Positions 30,562 through 43,592 of a stretch of DNA of 64,000 bases are shown in pieces (positions within the stretch are counted from its first letter, which is position 1; every line of letters starts with the position of its first letter). Position numbers and translations under genes: made by a program. The stretch comes from Nitrospinaceae bacterium (lineage in GTDB: Bacteria; Nitrospinota; Nitrospinia; Nitrospinales; JACRGP01). The notes under the pieces are model-generated. The model saw only the letters and a list, made by a program, of their open reading frames with translations, was not told the DNA's origin and searched no databases. The DNA lies in the NCBI GenBank assembly GCA_029261555.1, contig JAJDBB010000005.1:1-64000 (forward strand). Reading direction: 5' to 3'.

Positions 30562-32865
30562 TCAGCTCAAGCCAGCCCGGCGCCTCAGCCACCAGTCGAC
30601 AAACAAAAAACCCACGATTAAACCGTAGGCCCACCAATTGTCGCTCAGGCCGATGGTTTTGCTTCGAGCGTCGGCAAATCTTTCCCGGCGCGGAAAGGTC
30701 GGCTCTTTCCAATCCTCTCCCGTTTTCAATACCTGATAAAGGCCTCCAGTTTTTTCCGCCAATTTTTTCAATAAATACGCGTTGATTAACGGGCGCTCAA
30801 ACTCCAGGGTCTGGCTGAACCGCCGAAACTCGGCCTGGCTGGATAAGATCTCTTCGTCGCGCTCCGCCTCGATCTTAACGGAATAGAATCCGTCCTCCGC
30901 AGGGTGAAACTCGAAAGAGCCTTCCCCCTCGGCGTCTGTTTTCAGATCCTCGGAAAGGAGATCCTGTTTTTTGCTGATGGAACGAATGGATAACTTGACG
31001 GGTCTGTCAGGGTCCGGATTATAATCCTCTTTAAGAACTTTAAACTGAATCAGGACTTTCTCGCCGCTCGAGTACTGTTCCTTGTCGGTTTCAATCTGAA
31101 TCAGGCGAGTTGCCGGATCGTCGGTCAGCCAGGCGAGCAGGTTGCTCCAGAATTTCTGGTAATAGCGTCCGCTGCCGCCCTGCCCGACGCTTCTGAAATT
31201 CCAGTTCCACAAACTGTCGGTGGCAACGGCGAATGTCCTCCCCTTGCCGCTCTTCATCGCCGCCAGTACGGGAAGGGGTTTTCCAGACGCGGAATGCGCC
31301 GCCAACACCTGCGCTCTTTTCTTGGGAATCAAACCGCCGTTCAAACCGTTCAAGACAGGCAAGGAACGCCAGGCCCGGCGACTGGCGTCGGAATCTTTTT
31401 CCAGACGGAACAAGGGATGGTTGGCATAGCGATCCGGCGGAAGGAGTTGAAATTTCCCCTGATAAATTCCATCGGGCGTCGACTTGAATCGAACGGGCAA
31501 AATATCTTCAATGGGAGTGTTGCGGTACCCCCCGTTTTGAAACGATAAATCGCCGCCCACCATCAGGAACGCCCCTCCGTTTTCCACGTATCTTTTTATA
31601 TTGAGCAAATACTTTTTGTCGATAAACGGCGCGTACTTGAAGTTGTGGAATATGATCAAATCAAAGGAATACAAATAATCCGTGAACAACAAGTTGGAGG
31701 GAAATGGGATCAAACTCAATTCCCCCGTGGTTGCGGCGACGTCGTCGCTCAGCGTCCTTAAAATGAAAAACGAAAGCAGGTCGACCTTCGGGTTGTTGAT
31801 CAACACCTCGCGAAGAAAGCGCGTGTCCCAGGAAGGCCTGCCGTTGAGGTGTAATATTCGTAGGCGATCACGAACCACCTGCAATTGAAATTCCCGCGCG
31901 TTGTTCGACTCGATGGATTCGCCCGCAAACAAAGGCACGGACAACCGGTAAATCCGCTTGCCCACCGCCTCCGGGGTGAAGGCCATTTCCACCTGGTAAC
32001 GGGTTTGCCCCGGACGAATTTCCACGATCTTTGACGCCAGGATTTTATTGCCTTCCTTCAATACGAGCGGGACGTTCTTTTCTCCCATCGAAGAGGCGAC
32101 CAGGGTAACGGTCACGCTCGCGGGTTGAAATACGAAACCAAAATCCGCTAACTCCGCGCGCTCGATTCCAAGATCCTTGAATCCCTCGTTGTTTCCGGCC
32201 TGAAAAGTATGAATGGGCGCTTGAAAACCAGTTACCAGTTCTTCAAGGTCGGGAGAAAGGCTGTTTGGCAGTTGCGTCAAATCCGCGCCGTCGGAAAACA
32301 AAATCATTCCCCGAAGCGAGTCCTCGGGATAGCGTTCCTGAATTTTTTTTAACACGCCTCCGAAATCCGTATCGACGCCCAGCGGCTTGAACGCGCCCGT
32401 CATTCCCCCTGATTGGGCCGGGCGCAATTGGTCGGAGACCAGATAAAATTCCACGCGGTAATTTTCTTTCAGGCGAGCGAAATACTCCGGGTTTTGATCC
32501 AAAGCCTCGCGGACAAGATCAAACCTGCGCTTCCCGGCGGGGAGAGTTTTAATAGACATGCTCAAACTGTCGTCCAACAAAACCGCCACGGCATTTTTAG
32601 CGGCGCTTTTTTGCTTCATCTCCAAGCTGGGTTGCAACAAAACAAAAATCAATAGAGCGAATGCCAGAATTCTGAGACTGAACAAAAATCCTTTTTTTAA
32701 GGGCGACGTCACGCGCGCAAGACTGGTCCAAAAAAACCACAGCGCGAGCAGAAAAAAAACTCCCATCGCCGGGAACAGCCAGCCAGCCTCGCTCAACGCC
32801 CAATGAATTTCCCAGTCGTTGTACTCGCCCGGCGGCAAACCCAATAGGGCCAACAGAAGTTTCAT
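30562..32865 (-). CDS. VWA/glutamine-amidotransferase-like membrane protein
   Basis: A 767-residue protein with two N-terminal helices, a short linker and a von Willebrand A domain with the MIDAS motif DDSLS (near residue 96). A second half has a GATase-like Rossmann domain (RILHLNGRPSWDTRFLREV, then VENGGAFLMVGG). A beta-rich domain comes next, and a helix before the basic C-terminus. This is the layout of large membrane proteins near MoxR-DUF58-BatA clusters, whose exact role is not known. It overlaps the DUF4159 gene by four bases (ATGA), implying a shared complex. No moxR or DUF58 gene is nearby. Confidence 0.82.
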   Translation of the reverse strand: MKLLLALLGLPPGEYNDWEIHWALSEAGWLFPAMGVFFLLALWFFWTSLARVTSPLKKGFLFSLRILAFALLIFVLLQPSLEMKQKSAAKNAVAVLLDDSLSMSIKTLPAGKRRFDLVREALDQNPEYFARLKENYRVEFYLVSDQLRPAQSGGMTGAFKPLGVDTDFGGVLKKIQERYPEDSLRGMILFSDGADLTQLPNSLSPDLEELVTGFQAPIHTFQAGNNEGFKDLGIERAELADFGFVFQPASVTVTLVASSMGEKNVPLVLKEGNKILASKIVEIRPGQTRYQVEMAFTPEAVGKRIYRLSVPLFAGESIESNNAREFQLQVVRDRLRILHLNGRPSWDTRFLREVLINNPKVDLLSFFILRTLSDDVAATTGELSLIPFPSNLLFTDYLYSFDLIIFHNFKYAPFIDKKYLLNIKRYVENGGAFLMVGGDLSFQNGGYRNTPIEDILPVRFKSTPDGIYQGKFQLLPPDRYANHPLFRLEKDSDASRRAWRSLPVLNGLNGGLIPKKRAQVLAAHSASGKPLPVLAAMKSGKGRTFAVATDSLWNWNFRSVGQGGSGRYYQKFWSNLLAWLTDDPATRLIQIETDKEQYSSGEKVLIQFKVLKEDYNPDPDRPVKLSIRSISKKQDLLSEDLKTDAEGEGSFEFHPAEDGFYSVKIEAERDEEILSSQAEFRRFSQTLEFERPLINAYLLKKLAEKTGGLYQVLKTGEDWKEPTFPRRERFADARSKTIGLSDNWWAYGLIVGFLFVDWWLRRRAGLS

Positions 32866-33632
32866 TGAGAATGATATCTCCGCAAACGTTCCAGAATAAT
32901 GGGCAGGTGGACCATGTCCTTTTTATAATCCAGGGTGAGCGCATACATCGCGATATTTATTCCCAGACGAATCGCCAGTTTTCGTTGTCGTTGGCCGCCG
33001 CCGATCAGATCATATTTCCAATGTCCCAGCTTGTCCCTGGCCCACGCGCCGCCGAGATCGTTGGCGGAGTAAACCAGCGCGGTGCGGCCCTTGAGAGAAA
33101 CCCCCTCCAAAAAAGGATTTACCCGCGCCCTTCCAGTCACCTCGTCGATCAAATAAAACGAACGGAAAATAGAATGATCTTTCGGAATTTTTTGCAGAGG
33201 GTTGTGAGGGAACAATTGAGAAATCATTTCACGAACCGATCGATCAAATTCGGAATGGACCTCCGCCGAGGCGTCGTCGATCAGCAGGAATCCTCCATAG
33301 CTCAGATAGCGCCGCAAAATTTTCAGTTCCTCGGAGGAAAAAGGATCAAACGCGGCGGCGCCCGCAAGATAGAGAAATGGATAGCGATATAAATCCTTGC
33401 TCGCCAAACTCAACTCCAAAAACTCCCGTTTGACCTCGACGGAGGTTCGTTTGGCGGTTTGAATCAACAAACTTTCGACCGCCTGGGGGCGAGGTTTGTA
33501 ATCACCGCCCTGGTATTTGATTTGCGGGATCGCCAGGCGGGAATATTCCCCCATGGCCCAGACGGCCCCGGAAGCGGCCCATTGGACAACGATTAAACCG
33601 AGCGTCAGATAAAAGTTTGTTCTTTTTGTCAT
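32862..33632 (-). CDS. DUF4159 domain protein
   Basis: Exported protein of 256 residues with an N-terminal signal helix (SGAVWAMG end). The body has the QIKYQGGDYKPRPQAVESLL start typical of DUF4159, then the FLYLAGAAAFDPFSSEE segment and GGFLLIDDASAE. The family often sits next to the VWA-type protein coded directly downstream, with which this gene overlaps by four bases. Both probably act at the cell surface or periplasm. It is divergent from the aminotransferase gene with a 97-base gap that holds no clear promoter boxes. Confidence 0.88.
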   Translation of the reverse strand: MTKRTNFYLTLGLIVVQWAASGAVWAMGEYSRLAIPQIKYQGGDYKPRPQAVESLLIQTAKRTSVEVKREFLELSLASKDLYRYPFLYLAGAAAFDPFSSEELKILRRYLSYGGFLLIDDASAEVHSEFDRSVREMISQLFPHNPLQKIPKDHSIFRSFYLIDEVTGRARVNPFLEGVSLKGRTALVYSANDLGGAWARDKLGHWKYDLIGGGQRQRKLAIRLGINIAMYALTLDYKKDMVHLPIILERLRRYHSQ

Positions 33633-33729: not shown

Positions 33730-34830
33730 ATGAAAAAACGCGAAATACTTTTAAATCCCGGCCCCGTCAACACCAGCCCAAGAGTGCAACAAGCCCTCCT
33801 GCGCGGAGACCTGTGCCACAGGGAAGCGGAATTTTCCACATTGATGGCTTCCATCCGCGCCAAACTTCTAAAAGCCTTCGACGTCGAAAAAAACTATAAA
33901 TGCGTTTTGATTTCCGGCTCTGGAACCGCCGCGTTGGAAATGGCCGTCTCCTCCTGCCTGAGTCCCGGTCGAACCCTGCTGGTAATCGACAACGGAGTTT
34001 ACGGCGACCGAATCGCGCAAATGGCCGACGCTTACGGCCTTAACAAAAAGGTTCTTTCTTATAAATGGGGAACTCCCCCGGACCTCGAAGAAATTGAACG
34101 CGCGCTGAAAGAAAACCCCGACGTCGAAGTCCTCGCCGTCGTGCACCACGAAACCACCACGGGACTGCTCAATCCTCTGGAGTCCATAACCGGCCTGGCG
34201 AAAAAATACGGCGTCCGCGTACTGGCGGATTGCATCAGCAGTCTTGGAGGAGATCCGCTGGACTTCGAAAAAATTCCCTTGGATTTTTGTGTCGGCACAG
34301 CCAACAAATGCATTCAAGGATTTCCCGGCGTCTCCTTTGTATTGGTCCAGTCCCCGGAGCTTGAGCGATTGGAATCCATTCCTCCCCGATCCGTCTACTT
34401 CAATTTGCACAAAAATTATAAAGCGCAGGAAAAAGGCGACGCCCTTTTCACCCCAGCCATCCAGGCGCATTATGCGTTTGACGAAGCGTTGTCGGAGTTT
34501 TTGGAAGAAACTCCGGCGGGCAGAATTGAGAGATACCGCGCCACAGCAGAATTGCTACGCGCCGGGTTTAAAAAACTTGGATTGCGTTTTTTGATTCCGG
34601 AGAATTTGCATTCCAACACGCTGACCTCGTTGACGCTTCCCGAGGGAATGAAGTACTTTCGCCTGCACGACCGGCTCAAGGAAAAGGGATTTGTTATTTA
34701 TGCCGGGCAGGGAAATTTTAACGACCGAATTTTTCGCGTGGCCAACATGGGAGAGATAAGCCGGGAAGAATTCCAAGCGTTTCTCTCCGCGCTGGGCGAC
34801 TGTCTCTTGGAGGAAGGCCATGGAAAATAA
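33730..34830 (+). CDS. PLP aminotransferase, class V (PhnW/alanine-glyoxylate type)
   Basis: 366-residue aminotransferase of the 2-aminoethylphosphonate-pyruvate / serine-pyruvate group. The N-terminus LLNPGPVNTSPRV is the family hallmark. The PLP lysine sits in GTANKCIQGFPG, with the cofactor aspartate in LADCISSLGG. I start at the ATG at 33730 (MKKREILLNPGP). An upstream start at 33697 adds only non-conserved residues. The closest pattern is PhnW, but no other phosphonate gene is nearby, so the substrate could be another amino acid. It overlaps the next gene by 11 bases. Confidence 0.88.
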   Translation: MKKREILLNPGPVNTSPRVQQALLRGDLCHREAEFSTLMASIRAKLLKAFDVEKNYKCVLISGSGTAALEMAVSSCLSPGRTLLVIDNGVYGDRIAQMADAYGLNKKVLSYKWGTPPDLEEIERALKENPDVEVLAVVHHETTTGLLNPLESITGLAKKYGVRVLADCISSLGGDPLDFEKIPLDFCVGTANKCIQGFPGVSFVLVQSPELERLESIPPRSVYFNLHKNYKAQEKGDALFTPAIQAHYAFDEALSEFLEETPAGRIERYRATAELLRAGFKKLGLRFLIPENLHSNTLTSLTLPEGMKYFRLHDRLKEKGFVIYAGQGNFNDRIFRVANMGEISREEFQAFLSALGDCLLEEGHGK

Positions 34831-35512
34831 TCCCGGCCTGTACGAATTGATGGACGCCTACGCCCGGCAAACTGGGACGGCGCCAGACGCGGAATCGCCC
34901 ACGCCCAATCTGGGGCGAAGCCTGTCTCTGCTCAACGCCTGCCTGATCGAGGCGGGGTTGAGCCGCATGGACGACGGCCGCCCGCAAACCAGCGCTTTGC
35001 CCGACCAAATTCATCCCGAACATTTGAGCCGCTTCGTCGTTGCGTTTCTTCCCTTCAATTCCGTAACCGGTAAAGAAGAAACCAACCAGACGCTCTTTGA
35101 TGTGTTCTCGTTTTTAAAATGGATGGAGAAGAAAGGCGTCGCTCACGGCTGGCAATCCGTCGATTTCCAACAAGCCGTCCGCGACCTCTCCAACGACCAG
35201 GAACGCTGTCTGAAATTAAGCCACTTGATGGACGAGTTTACCGGACAGGTATTAGACGACCCGCCTCCCATTGTGGATACCGTTCACGGTTTTTTTACCG
35301 TCGTCAAAAAGGAAGGTTCTTATCTTTTCCTGAATTTCGAGGGAAAAAGCGAAGCGTTTCGGTTGCGCTTGTCCGATCCTATTCTTTCCCTAGCGCGCTT
35401 GAGAGACCGGCTGGACCTGGTGTTGGGAGATTCTTCCGACCGCTGGATTCTACTGGAAGCCGGTCAGGTTTTTCCAGAATACGAGACTAGCGGTAATCCC
35501 CCGTCAGATTAA
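34820..35512 (+). CDS. Hypothetical protein, 230 residues
   Basis: I do not recognise a family. The protein is soluble and acidic, without signal peptide or membrane helix. It has a helical N-terminal half (residues 1-140) and a beta-rich C-terminal part (from PIVDTVHGFFTVVKKEGSYLF). The translation start lies 11 bases inside the aminotransferase, so the two should be coupled; its role may be connected with that enzyme. Its last 26 bases overlap the 3' end of the giant CHAT gene on the opposite strand. Confidence 0.7.
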   Translation: MENNPGLYELMDAYARQTGTAPDAESPTPNLGRSLSLLNACLIEAGLSRMDDGRPQTSALPDQIHPEHLSRFVVAFLPFNSVTGKEETNQTLFDVFSFLKWMEKKGVAHGWQSVDFQQAVRDLSNDQERCLKLSHLMDEFTGQVLDDPPPIVDTVHGFFTVVKKEGSYLFLNFEGKSEAFRLRLSDPILSLARLRDRLDLVLGDSSDRWILLEAGQVFPEYETSGNPPSD

Positions 35513-38500
35513 ACGCCGACCAGTAGGAAGGATGCGGGTACAGGCTCTTGACCAGCAACTGCGCCTTTCTTAAGCTCTCCGCTTTGTTTTCCCGATTGTA
35601 ATTCCGGTAAAAATGTTTAATGAGCACCGCCGTGGAGACGTCGCTCACCCGCCACAGGGAAGAGAGCAGAGAGTGCGTTCCGGCGTATAGGAACGCCCGG
35701 TTGAGTCCCACCAGTTCGTCGCCCCCCGTGACCTCGCCCAACCCCGTCTGGCAGGCGCTGAGAGTCACCAGATCCGCCTTGATATTCAACGAGAACACCT
35801 CGCTCACCTGGAGACTGCCGTCCTCCGCCGTGTCCGAAGCCAGCTTCAACGAAGAGAACAGAGGATTCACCGCGTCGAATTCGCCGTGCGACGCGATGTG
35901 GATAATATCGTAATCCGCAATATGATCCCGAATCCAGCTTTCCGTCGCTTTCTCGCGGGTAAAGATATCGATTTCGGGGAAGTCCCATTGAATCGATTTG
36001 GCCTCCAACTCTGCCAAGGGAAGATCGTAATTTAAATTCTTAAGATCCGGATTGCCCATCGCCAGCACACGAACTGGCCCTTGTTTCTTCCGCTTGCGCG
36101 CAAAGGTGTATTTCAAAACCGACGCGCTGGGCGAATAAAACAAGGGATGCTTTTCTATCAGATATCCCTTCTCGTCCTTGAGCGAAGAAAAGGAAACGTA
36201 ATGCAGACGCCCGTGCGGGACGATTCCCAATATGCGTTTTGCGGCGATAAGTTTTTCGATAGGCGTCATCAACAAGCCGTACAATTGCATCGACTGGCTT
36301 TCCACGGGAGCGGAATCTTGGATCCGGTTGCGATAATTTTCGATCAAAGCGTTCAAATCGCTTTCCGCAACGGGAGTGCGCACGGAGGATATTCCGTCCC
36401 GCGTGATCACCCACGCGACCAGTTCCTTTTTGGTCACGAGGTATTCCACCAAAGCCACGTCCTCCTCCAACAATTTTTGCAAATCCTTGAGGGTGATGGA
36501 CTCGACAGTAACGAAGTTGGAAATCTCGGGGCTTTCCGCCTTGGCCTCGATCAGCAAATCCTGATAAGCAGTTCGAGCCTGCGCCAATTGGGACTTCAAC
36601 AATTGCTTTGCCTTCTCGTCGTCCCCGGCAGCGCCCAGGGAATCCTCCAGTTTACGAATTTGGTTCTTTTGGGCGCCTATCCGGTCGAATAATTTTTGAC
36701 TAACGTCGTCCTTCAAACTAATTTTCTGGTTGCCCAGCAAGTCGATAAAGCTCCTCGACTTTCCTCGTTCGGCGAAATTAAACGCCTCCTCCACCTTGCC
36801 CTGATTCAACAGCAGGATGATGAGTTCCTTATAAACGTCTTGCTTGTCCGTCAGAAAACCATTTTGAAATTCCTCGACCTTGATCGCGGCGCGCATATTA
36901 TCGACAACCATCACCGCCTTTTTATAAGCGGCGGTAGCCTCCCCGGATTTGCCCGCCAGGTTCAGGCAAAACCCTTCGCCGCGCAAGGCTCTCCAATGAA
37001 CTTCTTTGATGTTCAATTCTTCCGCCGTCCGCGCAGTTTCCCGGTAAACGGCGACAGCCTGCCCGCAATTCTGGCGCGCCCGATGCAAATTGCCCAGTTC
37101 TAGTTTAGCTTTCACCAGATTGGTGCGATTGCCAATCTCCGCGCTCAATTGAATGGCTTTTTTGATATGCCCTTCCGCTTCGTCCAAGTTCTCCATGCGC
37201 AGATAACTCATGCCCATGTTGCGATGGGTGTAGCCCTGCCCCCATTTGGTTTTTAATTGCACATCCAGATCGAGAGCTTTTTGAAAATACTCCAGGGATT
37301 CGGGATATTTTTTGTCCTTGCGGTAAACAAGGCCGATGTTGTTGTACGCCGAAGACACGTCCAGAAGAGAATGCGCCTCGTCCGCCAGATCGCGGCTGTC
37401 GTGAAGATGTTTTAAAGCGCGCGGCGAATCGTTCAACGTCCAGTGGATCAAACCCAGCGTATTGTAAATGAACGCCTGCTGGCGCTTGTCCTGCAACTCG
37501 TCCGCCAGAGCGAGCGCCTGCCTTTGATACTTGAACGCGTTTTGATAATCGCCCTGAAACCAGGAAGTGTTGGCCTTGTACAAAAGCGCCTTAGACAGGC
37601 TGGACTTGAGATCATGCTCCCTCGCCTGTCCCTCCGCCTGATTGTAATATTTCATCGCCAGCCCGAAGTCGCTCTGCTTTTCCGCCACCAATCCCAGTTC
37701 CAGCAGGGCTTCCACCCATTGGTCCTGCTGATCGATTTCGCGGAAAATATTCAACGCTTCGGAAAAGTAATTCCGCGCCTTTCCGTAATCGTTCAACCGC
37801 AAATAATAAATCCGACCCAGGCGGCGAAGCTCGCGCCCCTGATTCAACTCCTCGCCAATCTCCTGATTGATCGCAAGAGAGGCCTGAAAAGCTTCCAGGG
37901 CCTTATCGTAATCCAAAGAGTTTTCCTCGACCACGCCTAACACGCTGTAACTTTCCGCCAGCTTGTCGAGGATTTCATTTTCCTTATAAATCTTCAGCGC
38001 GGCCTGCAAATTTTTCACCGACTGCGGAAACTGCTCCGCCCGCGAATACAAAATGCCGAGAAAATAAACCGCTCCCGCCAGAACTTCAGGATCGTCGGCA
38101 AGCTTTGCCCTCTCCACCAACACTTTTTGATACTCGACCGCCTTGCCGTAATCTTTCATATTGTAGGCGGCCTGCGACAGCGCCTTATAAATCTGGTCCG
38201 CCTGACTTTGATCTTCCATCAAGTCCAGAAGCGCCAAGGCTCGTTCAAAATAGTTGACTGCGTCGCTCCAGTTTTTCCCGGTAAACGCCGCGATCCCTTG
38301 TTTCGCGTTGGCAAGAAAATGCTCGTTCGCAAATCGGCTTTTTTCCTCCTCGTCCATTCCCGGAAACCCGTAATAGCGGTATTGCGCCCAGGCATGAGAG
38401 CCGGGATGCTTGCGGGCCAGTTCCATTTGCGCTTGGCGCAAACTTTCCGCCGGATATCCCTTGCGAAAATTTGAATAGAATTTTTCAAGAAATTCTTCAT

Positions 38501-41500
38501 GCAACGCCAGGTCGGGGGCGCCAAAATGCAATAGGATTCCGGGGAAGCCCATAAAATCCAGACTGTGGATCAAAGGCGCAGAAGGGGAGATTCCCGATTC
38601 CGGGTCGGCCTGAAAATCGACATGATTCAACGCGATGAAATTTCCTTCCAGACTCTCGCCCAACAGTTTGTCCAGGTAAAGACGCTCGAAATGATCCGGG
38701 CTGGCGCTCAAATTGATGTAAGCGGTTTTGGGCTCCAGACCGCCCAGGTTGGTTTTGCCGTCCACCTGGACGACTCCAAAATTCGCGGACTGTATTTGAA
38801 AGTTTTCCGCCGAGCTGGCGTCTCCCGCCAGCCGGACGGCGGTGGCAAAGGTTTTTGAGATTTTTGCAAACTGGGCCTGCGGCGTTTCCAGAGCTAGAAA
38901 ACGGGAGTTATAAAGGTTCCGGTTTTCCTGCGAATTAACAAACTGGAACAGGGAGGATAAAAACACGACCGGAAAGCGCTCAACCAAAGGCGCGCCCTCC
39001 AACTTGAACGCCTGCCAGGGAAGACTCTCCAGGGCGCCGTTGGCGATCAAATAAACCGATTTGGCGTCGGTCAATGTGCCGGCAATGGGCTGTATCAACG
39101 ACTCGGAAAGAAACTTTAAATCCTCCGGAGAAGCGTTTTTTCCGATTTGGTTCAAATCTTGCGCCAGTTTCAACACGCGCCCTTCGCTTTGGACCGTTCC
39201 GCCCAAAACTTTTTCCGCCGAGAGGGCCCAGATAAAAATCCGGTCGTAAACGATTTGATACTTCAAAATAATTTCGCCCGGTTTCAAAAATTCGCGGACC
39301 CGTTCAAGACTGGGAACGGTAGGAGAAAACAACGAGGCCAGCGCGGAGTCTTCTTCCCTAACAACCTGGAGAAAATCAAAATACTCCAACAGCGCTCCCT
39401 CCATTTCCTCCGAAGAAGAAGCGGCTCTTGGCTCCAACGAAAGTTTCCGGACCGCTTCGGCAAACTCCGCCAGGGTCGTCCACAATTCTTCCCGGGCGGG
39501 TTGATTAAAATGTAGAGGCCTGTCCTGGTTCAGCGAAACCAGAATCTGTTGCAGGCCCTTTTCGGAATAGTGCAGGGCGTTGCTGTATTGTTTTCCTTCG
39601 AAATAATAACGGACCAGCGAGAGGTAAAGCTCCTCCATCATCGTCCGGGAGGGCGCGGCGTCGGGCAACATTCCAAAAGGCAAACGCGAAAGTTCTTCCT
39701 CCGCAGCCAACAGCGACGCGGCCTTTTCCTCTCCTTCAGCCTCGAAATATTCCAGAAAGCGGAACTGCCAATTGGAATTAATGACGATGGAATCGGAAAG
39801 CGCGGAAGCGTCTTCCTTCCTCTCGGTCCTGCCTGTCAGGGAATCAGCCAACTCCAGGTTTTGCAGGAGCGCGGACTCCAACTTTTGCCGCAAGGGATTT
39901 TTAAGTTTTTCGCGGGTGAGCGCCAACGCCTGCTCAAAATAATTTCGCGACTTTTTTATGTAGCTGTATTCTTTTTCCAGATCACCGTAGGCGGACTGCA
40001 AAAGTTGCTTTGCCGAGTCGCCCTTCGCTGCGGGAGTTATTTGCACGGACTCAGAATAAACCGCCCGGTAATGATACAAAATGCCGAGATAGTTTTTAAG
40101 AAACGCTTCGTATTCCGGGTTCGCGAAGTTCTCCGCCTGTTGGACGATCCCGGCGGACTCCTCCAGTAATTCCGTCGCCTCGTCCATTTCATCTTTCAAT
40201 TCTTTCAGCGAATGGGTGCGCGCTCTGGCGATCAAAATCCTGCCCAGGTTGGCGGCGTTCACGGCGACGCCTTGCCGATTGTCAATCGACTTGCTCAGCG
40301 CGTAGGATTCCAGAAAGTAGCGTTTGGCCTCTTCCAGGTTGGCCGCGTGGAAATGGTAATTGCCTATCTGGTTGAGCAGTATTCCCCGTTCAAGCGCTAC
40401 GGGCACGTTTGCCTTTGGATCTGATATTTCCGGAATCAAATCGAGCTTCTTTTGATAATAATCAATGGCCCGCTCGTAATCTCCCAGGTCCCCGTAAATT
40501 TTTCCGATGTAATTGAAGATGAGTTTTTCTTCGCCCGTCTTGTCGAATCCAGAAGCCGCCTGGGACGCATTATCGTTCAGTCCGGTCTCCACGCTCACGT
40601 CAATCAGGCCGGTCTTTTCCTTGGCCGCCTTGGTTCCCAGCCCGTATTTTTCCAGGTTGTCCACGGCCTTGAAATAATTCCCCAGCGCCAGGTTCAAGGA
40701 TTTAACGTCCTGCGACTTCTTGTTCTGGTTGAGGGAGTACAGGTTATTGGCGATGTTCCTCAGGGCCTTGGAAATGGATTGGGTGTTTCCGGTCTGGCGG
40801 TGCAACTCGAGGGTCTTGGAAAAATAATCCACCGCCTTGGCGTAATGTCCTCCATCGTGATACGCCAGGGCGATTCGGTCGTTGATTTCCGCAAGACGTT
40901 TGGGGTCTTTTTTCTTTTCGAGCAGCGCCAGGGCTTTCAAATAATATTCCGCCGCTTCGTCCGGCAAACCGGACTTAAAAGCGCTCTCGCCGAACCGGCG
41001 GTAATAAAGGGCTTCGCGGTCCGCGTTGATAAAATCAATTTTTCGGTCCAGGCGTTTTTTGTAATACAGATAAGCGGAGTTAAAATTTTTCAACAAATAG
41101 TTGCCGTTGCCCAAGTTCAACGCCAGGTCTGCTTCGTTTCGCGGACGCAAAGCCGCGTCGTTCAGCGCCAGAGCAATTTGATATTCGTGAACAGCCCGTT
41201 CCAACGAGCCTTTTTCGCCGTTACTCTCCTTCTGCTCGTAAACATAACCCAGCGTCTGATGATAATACGGGTTCAGGGAATCCGCCGTCAGCGCCTGATC
41301 GATTTCCCTTTCGGCGTCCTTTAGATTGGGAGGAGTTAAATAGGTGTAGGCCAGACCCAGCGCATAATGCTCGGCGGGCAGAGCGTCTTTAACCTTACTA
41401 GTCCGGTCCTTGTAAAATTTGATCGTCTGATTGACCTGCCCCAAACTTGCTTTTGCCAGGATGTAGCCGCGGTGCGCCTCCACAACCTTCGGATCAAAGT

Positions 41501-43592
41501 CAATCAGCTTTTTATAAGTATTGACCGCCAGTTTCACCTCGCCGACCTTGAGTTCCCATTTGCCTTTTTCCAGGGATTTACGAATGTAACCCGCGCGCGC
41601 CTGGCGGTAATCCCCTTCCTGCTGGCGAGTTCCTTCGGTAATCTTTTGGTAAACGTTCAGGCTTCCCTGAAAATCCTCTTCCTCCGCCAGGATTCTGGCG
41701 AGCGCGAACATGGCCTTTAAACGTTCCCTGGGCGCCTTGGGGTAGCGTTTCATGGTTGCCCGGTAAGCTTCCTTCGCCAGCAGGTTCTCATGCGCCTTGT
41801 GGTAAAGCTCCCCGATCCTGTTGCGGACCGCCGCCGCCAGCAAGGGAAGGGTTTTATATTTTTCTTCCAGGTTTTGCAGGCTGAACACTTTCTTTTTCAG
41901 GGTCGGCTGCTTTTCGAAAAGCGCCAGGATTTCGCCGACGGCTTTTTGGGTCCAGAACGGCACGTCGACGTAATTCCGCGTCACTTGAACGAAAGCGTCC
42001 ACCAGTTTTTCCCGTTCTTCCAGAGAGGCGTAAACTTTACTCATGGAAAACGCAGCTTCGGCTGAGGCCCAACGTTGACTGGAAAATTTTTCGACGACTT
42101 GTTTATAATTGTTCAGGGCGCGGACGGGTTGGTTCAGATCAAAATAAACGTGTCCCTTTTCCACCAGCCCGCGCGCCACGACCTCTGGCCGGTCTTGATA
42201 AACGACGATGATTTTTCCAAGCTCGACCAGGGCTTTTTTATTTTCCTCCGCGAATCGTGTGGCTCCCTCGTCCTGATAGTCCGCCGCTGCCAGCAAAAAC
42301 AGTTCGATTTGCGCCAACCCTTTATAGATACGGTTCTGGTCGTGAAACTGGATGATGGACTCAAAATGTTTTCGCGCCGCGTCCCGGTGTCCCAGCTTTT
42401 TATATCCAGACGCGGCGCGGTAGCGAGTCCGGGCCAGTAGTTTCTCCCCCGCAAAATCGCGAATAAGGTTTTCAAAAATTAATTGGCAGGGGTAGGAAAC
42501 GTCGTACCTCGGGCAGAGGTCTTCCGCAAATTGGACGCCCTGCCCAAAATCGGATTGCCGCGGCGCCATGCCATCAAGAGGGATTTCCCAGACGTCCACT
42601 CCGGTTTTTCGCGTGGTAGTAAAAAACACATGCTCCTTGCCGGCGATGGGAAGCAGGTCGTATGTCGAACTGTCGGTCAATTGGCGAAATTTCCCAGGAA
42701 TGGTTCCGCCCATTTCCACGCGCCAGATATTTCCGGGATCGTCGATCGTCAGGCGCCCGTCAAAATTAGCGTCGTCCTGATAACGGGTAAAGAAAATATA
42801 TTGTCCATCCGGAGACCAACGGGGAGTCAGGTCGATTTCCGGTCCGGCAGTGATTTGCGTATTTTTTCCCGTCGCCAGTTCGTGAACCCATAGTCCTCCC
42901 GTGGGATCCTTGAACGTAGAGGTGAAAGCCAGATATTTTCCGTCGGGAGAAACGGAAGGCGAAACGGAATCAATTTGAACAGAGGGTGCAACCGTTTTTC
43001 CGCCCACGGCCAGTTTAACAATCCGGTTTTCGCCGGACAGCGCGGTATTGGAAGCAAAGTAAATGAACTGCCCGTTTGGCGACCAAACCGGTTCTGAATC
43101 CGCCGTTTGCGCGTCGGTCATTTTTTCGAGCGCCGCCTGGTCCTGCTTTTCTTCTTTGTCGCCCAACCCCACGAGGCCCAACAGTTTGTTCTTTTTACTA
43201 ACCGACGCGTTCTGGGCAGAGCCTAGATCCATAATATAGACGTCGCCTTTGGGGTCGCTGCGGTTGGAAATAAAAACCAGTCGCTTGCCGTCCGGACTGA
43301 ATGCAGGCGAGTTGTCGTCGGCGCTGTGAAAAGTTAATTGCCGGTCCGGAGGCTGGCTTCCCGGCCCGATGATCTTCAACCAGATATCCAGGTTCCCGGT
43401 TTGGCCTGAAACGTAGGCCATCATCGATCCATCGGGAGAAAGAGCAGGGGCAAAATCGTCGCCGGGATTGGCGGAAACCTGAACGGCGGAGTTGAATTGC
43501 GATTCCGCCAAAGCTCTTAAGGGAAGTCCGCAGATCATGGTCAGGCAAAACAGAATCAAAAGCGCTGTGTAGGAGCTGAAAGGTTTTTTCAT
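35487..43592 (-). CDS. Giant exported protein: PD40 propeller, TPR, degenerate CHAT, TPR, active-site CHAT protease
   Basis: A single 2701-residue frame without interruption. Residues 1-29 are a signal peptide cleaved after ALA. Residues 30-335 hold five PD40/TolB-type blades (for example PALSPDGSMMAYVS, PAFSPDGKRLVFIS, PRWSPDGQYIFFTR). From about 350 to 1400 run TPR-like helical repeats. About 1430-1745 resembles a CHAT domain whose His and Cys positions are replaced: the counterpart of the active-site Cys is Val1658 in LNHVDF. More TPRs fill about 1750-2310. The C-terminal CHAT (about 2380-2701) has intact His2569 in IASHGEF and Cys2614 in SACQTGLG, the caspase-like dyad. CHAT proteases are usually cytoplasmic; here the signal peptide predicts export. 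The substrate is unknown. The gene is divergent from nuoN, with a 270-base gap. Confidence 0.92.
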   Translation of the reverse strand: MKKPFSSYTALLILFCLTMICGLPLRALAESQFNSAVQVSANPGDDFAPALSPDGSMMAYVSGQTGNLDIWLKIIGPGSQPPDRQLTFHSADDNSPAFSPDGKRLVFISNRSDPKGDVYIMDLGSAQNASVSKKNKLLGLVGLGDKEEKQDQAALEKMTDAQTADSEPVWSPNGQFIYFASNTALSGENRIVKLAVGGKTVAPSVQIDSVSPSVSPDGKYLAFTSTFKDPTGGLWVHELATGKNTQITAGPEIDLTPRWSPDGQYIFFTRYQDDANFDGRLTIDDPGNIWRVEMGGTIPGKFRQLTDSSTYDLLPIAGKEHVFFTTTRKTGVDVWEIPLDGMAPRQSDFGQGVQFAEDLCPRYDVSYPCQLIFENLIRDFAGEKLLARTRYRAASGYKKLGHRDAARKHFESIIQFHDQNRIYKGLAQIELFLLAAADYQDEGATRFAEENKKALVELGKIIVVYQDRPEVVARGLVEKGHVYFDLNQPVRALNNYKQVVEKFSSQRWASAEAAFSMSKVYASLEEREKLVDAFVQVTRNYVDVPFWTQKAVGEILALFEKQPTLKKKVFSLQNLEEKYKTLPLLAAAVRNRIGELYHKAHENLLAKEAYRATMKRYPKAPRERLKAMFALARILAEEEDFQGSLNVYQKITEGTRQQEGDYRQARAGYIRKSLEKGKWELKVGEVKLAVNTYKKLIDFDPKVVEAHRGYILAKASLGQVNQTIKFYKDRTSKVKDALPAEHYALGLAYTYLTPPNLKDAEREIDQALTADSLNPYYHQTLGYVYEQKESNGEKGSLERAVHEYQIALALNDAALRPRNEADLALNLGNGNYLLKNFNSAYLYYKKRLDRKIDFINADREALYYRRFGESAFKSGLPDEAAEYYLKALALLEKKKDPKRLAEINDRIALAYHDGGHYAKAVDYFSKTLELHRQTGNTQSISKALRNIANNLYSLNQNKKSQDVKSLNLALGNYFKAVDNLEKYGLGTKAAKEKTGLIDVSVETGLNDNASQAASGFDKTGEEKLIFNYIGKIYGDLGDYERAIDYYQKKLDLIPEISDPKANVPVALERGILLNQIGNYHFHAANLEEAKRYFLESYALSKSIDNRQGVAVNAANLGRILIARARTHSLKELKDEMDEATELLEESAGIVQQAENFANPEYEAFLKNYLGILYHYRAVYSESVQITPAAKGDSAKQLLQSAYGDLEKEYSYIKKSRNYFEQALALTREKLKNPLRQKLESALLQNLELADSLTGRTERKEDASALSDSIVINSNWQFRFLEYFEAEGEEKAASLLAAEEELSRLPFGMLPDAAPSRTMMEELYLSLVRYYFEGKQYSNALHYSEKGLQQILVSLNQDRPLHFNQPAREELWTTLAEFAEAVRKLSLEPRAASSSEEMEGALLEYFDFLQVVREEDSALASLFSPTVPSLERVREFLKPGEIILKYQIVYDRIFIWALSAEKVLGGTVQSEGRVLKLAQDLNQIGKNASPEDLKFLSESLIQPIAGTLTDAKSVYLIANGALESLPWQAFKLEGAPLVERFPVVFLSSLFQFVNSQENRNLYNSRFLALETPQAQFAKISKTFATAVRLAGDASSAENFQIQSANFGVVQVDGKTNLGGLEPKTAYINLSASPDHFERLYLDKLLGESLEGNFIALNHVDFQADPESGISPSAPLIHSLDFMGFPGILLHFGAPDLALHEEFLEKFYSNFRKGYPAESLRQAQMELARKHPGSHAWAQYRYYGFPGMDEEEKSRFANEHFLANAKQGIAAFTGKNWSDAVNYFERALALLDLMEDQSQADQIYKALSQAAYNMKDYGKAVEYQKVLVERAKLADDPEVLAGAVYFLGILYSRAEQFPQSVKNLQAALKIYKENEILDKLAESYSVLGVVEENSLDYDKALEAFQASLAINQEIGEELNQGRELRRLGRIYYLRLNDYGKARNYFSEALNIFREIDQQDQWVEALLELGLVAEKQSDFGLAMKYYNQAEGQAREHDLKSSLSKALLYKANTSWFQGDYQNAFKYQRQALALADELQDKRQQAFIYNTLGLIHWTLNDSPRALKHLHDSRDLADEAHSLLDVSSAYNNIGLVYRKDKKYPESLEYFQKALDLDVQLKTKWGQGYTHRNMGMSYLRMENLDEAEGHIKKAIQLSAEIGNRTNLVKAKLELGNLHRARQNCGQAVAVYRETARTAEELNIKEVHWRALRGEGFCLNLAGKSGEATAAYKKAVMVVDNMRAAIKVEEFQNGFLTDKQDVYKELIILLLNQGKVEEAFNFAERGKSRSFIDLLGNQKISLKDDVSQKLFDRIGAQKNQIRKLEDSLGAAGDDEKAKQLLKSQLAQARTAYQDLLIEAKAESPEISNFVTVESITLKDLQKLLEEDVALVEYLVTKKELVAWVITRDGISSVRTPVAESDLNALIENYRNRIQDSAPVESQSMQLYGLLMTPIEKLIAAKRILGIVPHGRLHYVSFSSLKDEKGYLIEKHPLFYSPSASVLKYTFARKRKKQGPVRVLAMGNPDLKNLNYDLPLAELEAKSIQWDFPEIDIFTREKATESWIRDHIADYDIIHIASHGEFDAVNPLFSSLKLASDTAEDGSLQVSEVFSLNIKADLVTLSACQTGLGEVTGGDELVGLNRAFLYAGTHSLLSSLWRVSDVSTAVLIKHFYRNYNRENKAESLRKAQLLVKSLYPHPSYWSAFNLTGDYR

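Follow-up and report, generated by a model that had tools for sequence, protein, structure and literature searches.

The window analyzed here covers 64,000 nucleotides (positions 1 to 64,000 of contig JAJDBB010000005.1, assembly GCA_029261555.1) from a Nitrospinaceae bacterium, a member of the Nitrospinota, which include major marine nitrite oxidizers. It encodes a giant protein that consists, from N to C terminus, of a leader, a TolB-like PD40 propeller, a first TPR stretch (TPR1), a CHAT block without the catalytic residues (the dead block), a second TPR stretch (TPR2), and a CHAT protease block that retains them (the live block). CHAT proteases are known chiefly from cytoplasmic defense and for their kinship with separases. 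The live block matches the Pfam CHAT domain (PF12770) at residues 2435 to 2699 with E = 1.5e-68 (231.8 bits against a cut-off of 24), and its His2569 (SHG motif) and Cys2614 (SACQTG motif) are found where the first-pass annotation of this DNA had placed them; the strand of the gene, which the annotation did not give, is minus. This is the only CHAT gene detected by the Pfam model in the window's genome, which is 86% complete. The propeller, also recognized in that annotation, gives five stretches of PD40 (E = 1.8e-41) and matches TolB structures at E of about 1e-12; the role of a sensor that was assigned to it would be an interpretation. Pfam also finds TPR_12 in 11 stretches. The second CHAT stretch reported in the whole-protein scan is probably part of the C-terminal domain, because Pfam alone misses the dead block: scanned by itself, the internal block has no CHAT match.

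The relationship of the two blocks was nevertheless apparent from their direct comparison. Residues 1376 to 1760 align colinearly with residues 2331 to 2701 over 364 columns (BLASTP E = 9e-8, 15% identity), with Val1658 paired with Cys2614, and the local score of 111 compares with 36 ± 5 (maximum, 65) in 1,000 shuffles. Block profiles built from 32 sequences, namely the window protein and 31 orthologs from relatives (full or near-full length plus a few partial ones), match each other in hhalign with a probability of 99.2 and E = 1.7e-19 over 331 columns. When the upstream TPRs are included (residues 1290 to 1755 versus 2225 to 2701), the E value improves to 1.7e-25; the match of TPR1 to TPR2 (E = 6.3e-12) is weak evidence, as TPRs are repetitive. 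Because the homology thus takes in TPR helices ahead of each block, the protein resembles a succession of two homologous TPR-CHAT units. Searching the PDB sequences with the dead block returned only noise. Its AlphaFold2 model, however, is confident (predicted local distance difference test [pLDDT] score, 88.6; predicted template modeling [pTM] score, 0.88) and shows the CHAT fold, matching the Craspase TPR-CHAT in Foldseek with E = 6e-13 and TMq of 0.65; further matches are to Csx29, DdvA, separases, and SAVED-CHAT. Chance likeness of the two blocks is ruled out by the shuffles, the profile comparison, and the structure. By these alignments and models, the internal block is genuinely homologous to CHAT domains, as the first-pass annotation had proposed, and may represent a whole CHAT block, with a CHAT1-like part and a dead CHAT2-like part. 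The annotation had correctly put Val1658 at the Cys site but had looked for the His equivalent near residue 1608, whereas the residue opposite His2569 is Lys1613.

In all 32 aligned sequences, the catalytic dyad of the live block is invariant, as is Glu2571, two residues past the His, and Cys2614 is the only Cys in the block. The corresponding positions of the dead block hold a Cys or a His in none of the 32, so that no ortholog keeps the dyad internally, and comparative analysis identifies this block as a conserved pseudoenzyme. Both findings that the annotation had named as fatal to its pseudo-CHAT claim, a fold other than caspase-like and a retained His/Cys in homologs, were looked for, and neither turned up. 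Since the live dyad is invariant while the first copy has lost its own, the alignment indicates that selection for catalysis is present. Between the window gene and that of a genus-mate (L039), the dead block has a ratio of nonsynonymous to synonymous substitution rates (dN/dS) of 0.078, and the live block has one of 0.076, which, on this estimate, places the dead block under purifying selection equal to that on the live block. Across the order, mean column identity among the orthologs is 53% for the dead block and 81% for the live block. The dead block nevertheless retains the invariant motifs GxLExLPW and WxxYRxYG, shows no break in any aligned ortholog, and is retained in every one of them, including the divergent L106 (see below).

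A leader with a hydrophobic core and an AXA-like site is present in 26/26 orthologs with an intact, recognizable N terminus, and by the simple rule used here for leaders and membrane segments (rather than SignalP), the giant has no membrane-like segment beyond it. The mature chains contain 0.16% Cys, versus 1.1% in neighboring genes; the window protein has 5 Cys in 2,672 residues, where about 30 would be expected (P = 1.6e-8). These are Cys360 and Cys369, which probably form a disulfide, Cys2176 and Cys2209, both present in 13 orthologs, and the nucleophile Cys2614. The Cys360/Cys369 pair and the nucleophile are the sole Cys in the approximately 2,500 to 2,600 residues of 11 near-full-length orthologs, a pattern that would fit a protein of an oxidizing compartment with one working cysteine. 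Because of the leaders, the lack of other transmembrane segments, and the Cys depletion, export of the giant from the cytoplasm is supported as a prediction; the leader looks cleavable, which leaves the annotation's proposal of export standing. The features are listed in Table 1.

Table 1. Coordinates in the window of the giant gene and its parts
Feature	Coordinates	Strand	Basis
Whole giant gene, 2,701 aa, ATG start	35487..43592	minus	Open reading frame list; 31 orthologs
Signal peptide, residues 1-29, AXA site ALA|ES	43506..43592	minus	Leader rule
PD40/TolB-like β-propeller, residues ~39-345	42558..43478	minus	Pfam PD40; TolB structure matches
Cys360/Cys369 pair directly after propeller	42486..42515	minus	Both in 28/28 orthologs covering both positions
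TPR1, residues ~380-1390	39423..42455	minus	Pfam TPR; hhalign versus TPR2
Dead CHAT block, residues 1395-1750	38343..39410	minus	hhalign; AlphaFold2; Foldseek; dN/dS
K1613, opposite catalytic His2569	38754..38756	minus	P/R/K/L/T in 32 sequences
V1658, opposite catalytic Cys2614	38619..38621	minus	V/I/A/L in 32 sequences
TPR2, residues ~1755-2240	36873..38330	minus	Pfam TPR; regular helix pairs, high pLDDT in model
Live CHAT protease block, residues 2345-2701	35490..36560	minus	Pfam CHAT; 32-ortholog conservation
Catalytic His2569, SHGE motif	35886..35888	minus	H, G, E invariant 32/32
Catalytic Cys2614, SACQTG motif	35751..35753	minus	Invariant 32/32

The survey of genomes for the double-CHAT architecture covered the Nitrospinota. 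Strong matches (E < 1e-100) were found in 37 of 77 genomes, all from one order, and a diverged match in a member of another family of the same class (G063) brings the total to 38. The latter locus (L106), whose N terminus is lost at a contig end, is colinear with residues 871 to 2700 at 39% identity and has the same dead internal and live C-terminal sites, with a strongly diverged dead block. In a broader pattern scan, the titles of the matching contigs named Nitrospinota, Nitrospinae, or Nitrospina, many of them Nitrospinaceae, with one labeled Nitrospirae. Colinear full-length orthologs in more than 20 independent genomes, some of which consist of a single contig, rule out an artifact or chimera of metagenome assembly. 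Throughout the order, the gene occupies a constant site, divergent from nuoN and flanked on the other side by convergent orphan and PhnW-like (aminotransferase) genes, followed by DUF4159 and GATase1-like genes. No phage match to the giant was found, and the plasmid search gave only two weak matches, annotated as CHAT-TPR proteins. From its position and distribution, the gene is judged to be chromosomally and vertically inherited at a fixed site beside the complex I genes. An obligatory functional link to the neighbors is ruled out, as nuoN and the orphan, PhnW-like, DUF4159, and GATase1-like genes all persist without the giant.

Single-CHAT proteins with a leader are also encoded in the Nitrospinota. 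These include L107 and L108, which have TPRs and align to residues 2223 to 2701 of the giant at 38% identity, and L113; all three have a live CHAT domain, are about 1,000 to 1,175 aa long, and differ from the giant in lacking the propeller and the dead block. In the phylogenetic tree, L107 and L108, which come from a related family, are sister to the live blocks (support, 97/96), which is why the exported single TPR-CHAT probably came first. The dead blocks cluster separately on long branches, which leave the rooting and the placement of the L106 dead block unsure; the dead block could have come either from an internal duplication or from fusion with another CHAT protein.

Among the described systems, Csx29, the TPR-CHAT of type III-E Craspase, gives the best sequence match (E = 0.015) and the best structure matches. 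Here, too, a TPR solenoid leads into a CHAT block that carries a His/Cys dyad, and its H615/E617 spacing (PMC10028731) equals that of H2569/E2571. Csx29 already combines a pseudocaspase (CHAT1) with an active caspase (CHAT2) in a separase-like arrangement, so that the first-pass annotation overstated its case in treating an inactive caspase-like partner as foreign to described TPR-CHATs. Nor is export as exceptional as it had claimed, given the single-CHAT TPR proteins with a leader or a lipoprotein-type leader in the same phylum and the transmembrane DdvA. However, Csx29 is a cytoplasmic protein of about 700 aa with one CHAT block that is RNA guided via Cas7-11/gRAMP, whereas the giant is predicted to be exported, is 2,701 aa long, and has a propeller and an extra whole dead block; no gRAMP/Cas7-11 or CRISPR genes were found among the neighbors tested. 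What is new, as far as these predictions go, is the complete TPR-CHAT unit with a dead first copy ahead of the live one, joined to a propeller in a single, predicted exported chain.

TPR-CHAT resembles separase (PMC9729208), another giant α-solenoid protease with a caspase fold, which matches the dead block in Foldseek with E = 1e-10. The likeness is one of fold only, as Pfam, NCBIfam, and PDB sequence searches gave no separase family match to the giant; separase is eukaryotic and controlled by securin, and the dead and live blocks of the giant are parted by a long TPR stretch. Both structural models also match ciliary central-apparatus proteins (PDB 7n6g_1N, 9ijj, and 7sqc), which hints at a CHAT-like pseudoenzyme fold in the axoneme.

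On balance, we consider it probable that the Nitrospinota inherit the giant chromosomally, export it through Sec, and use it as a cysteine protease of the envelope, with the dead block in the role of scaffold or regulator. Its place of action would be the periplasm or the cell surface, where the propeller and TPR1 may bind an envelope partner. Binding might be relayed along the TPR solenoid until it reaches the live block, by analogy with Csx29, in which a change in the TPRs is relayed and the catalytic residues are repositioned (PMC10028731), and the output would be that a single envelope protein, or a small number of them, is specifically cleaved. By comparison with the Csx29 relay, separase, and gingipain, whose second subdomain is similar to the active one and has been suggested to be stabilizing (PMC4626109), the dead block most likely acts as a scaffold for the live one or as its allosteric partner; modeled on the inactive caspase-like domains of Csx29 and gingipain, it might clamp the live block or the substrate or provide either with a place to dock. 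A bolder version, which we hold only tentatively, has the dead unit regulate the live one from within the chain, the two forming an intramolecular pseudoheterodimer that an envelope ligand would switch by way of the propeller. The dead-live pairing would recall cFLIP and caspase-8, but outside the cytoplasm and in one chain, and such a regulated envelope caspase-like protease would be unlike any described. Several observations weigh against the role of an envelope protease: the TPR2-CHAT model is confident in its TPR part only (pLDDT, 76.9 overall and about 40 to 60 in much of the CHAT block), and well-completed relatives such as G011 and G013 show a clean loss of the gene. Because the flanks stay intact there, the giant is dispensable, and the neighbors give no clue to its partner.

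Some of the same evidence bears on other explanations. The giant could be chiefly a periplasmic receptor or scaffold whose TPR-CHAT units bind and signal, as may hold for DdvA, a transmembrane anti-sigma factor of Myxococcus with a TPR/CHAT-like fold, proteolysis being secondary. DdvA (PDB 8rw5 and 8rot) is among the best structural matches of the dead block (E = 7.5e-12) and the best match of the TPR2-CHAT model (E = 7.9e-14, although with low TM-scores of 0.37 to 0.39), and the DdvA-related sigma factor DdvS controls a defense island (PMC12288465). Still, the giant has neither a membrane anchor beyond the leader nor an anti-sigma domain (Pfam), and its live dyad is invariant, so that we regard this explanation as unlikely. 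Even less likely is that the internal block is a decaying, functionless relic that merely spaces the TPR solenoids. Its lower conservation and its divergence in L106 would suit a relic, but a dN/dS of 0.078 between close relatives, invariant motifs, unbroken orthologs, and a confident fold would not. A cytoplasmic defense or cell death protease, Craspase-like or gasdermin activating, is suggested by the homology to Csx29 and defense CHATs but appears very improbable in view of the leader, the Cys depletion, and vertical inheritance beside the complex I genes, unlike that of mobile defense islands. No CRISPR, gasdermin, or other defense genes were found among the tested neighbors (the adjacent orphan has no gasdermin family match, and no gasdermin-specific model was applied to the whole genome), and PADLOC returned only partial matches of the TPR/BovA type; neither the neighbors nor the fixed site support a defense island.

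If the predictions hold, one environmental lineage has moved TPR-CHAT outside the cytoplasm, placed two units in one chain, and killed the first copy while keeping it under full purifying selection. The giant would point to a regulated proteolysis step in the Nitrospinota envelope, and the role of pseudocaspases in CHAT proteases and separases becomes testable within a single chain.

Some additional observations concern the gene and its surroundings. The 3' end of the giant gene overlaps the convergent orphan gene (34820..35512, plus strand), which is conserved in most relatives, by 26 bases (window positions 35487 to 35512). The genes for DUF4159 and the 767-aa GATase1-like membrane protein (window positions 30562 to 33632, minus strand) stay together next to the nuo region as a conserved pair throughout the order, also in relatives without the giant; in one of the latter, a TonB-dependent receptor gene fills the interval (L118, 8100 to 10238, minus strand). 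In two relatives, L040 (5952 to 14378) and L063 (5929 to 13761), a pair of neighboring open reading frames takes the place of the single giant gene, which could reflect real fission, a stop, or a sequencing error; the split in L040 falls directly before the dead block. Finally, three loci (L070, 3641 to 8881; L071, 2975 to 8254; and L072, 3482 to 8752) encode a lipoprotein-leader TPR-CHAT of about 1,060 aa with the His and Cys present, directly followed by a gene for a 686- to 691-aa protein with a membrane-like N terminus, a pair that constitutes another type of exported CHAT system in those genomes.

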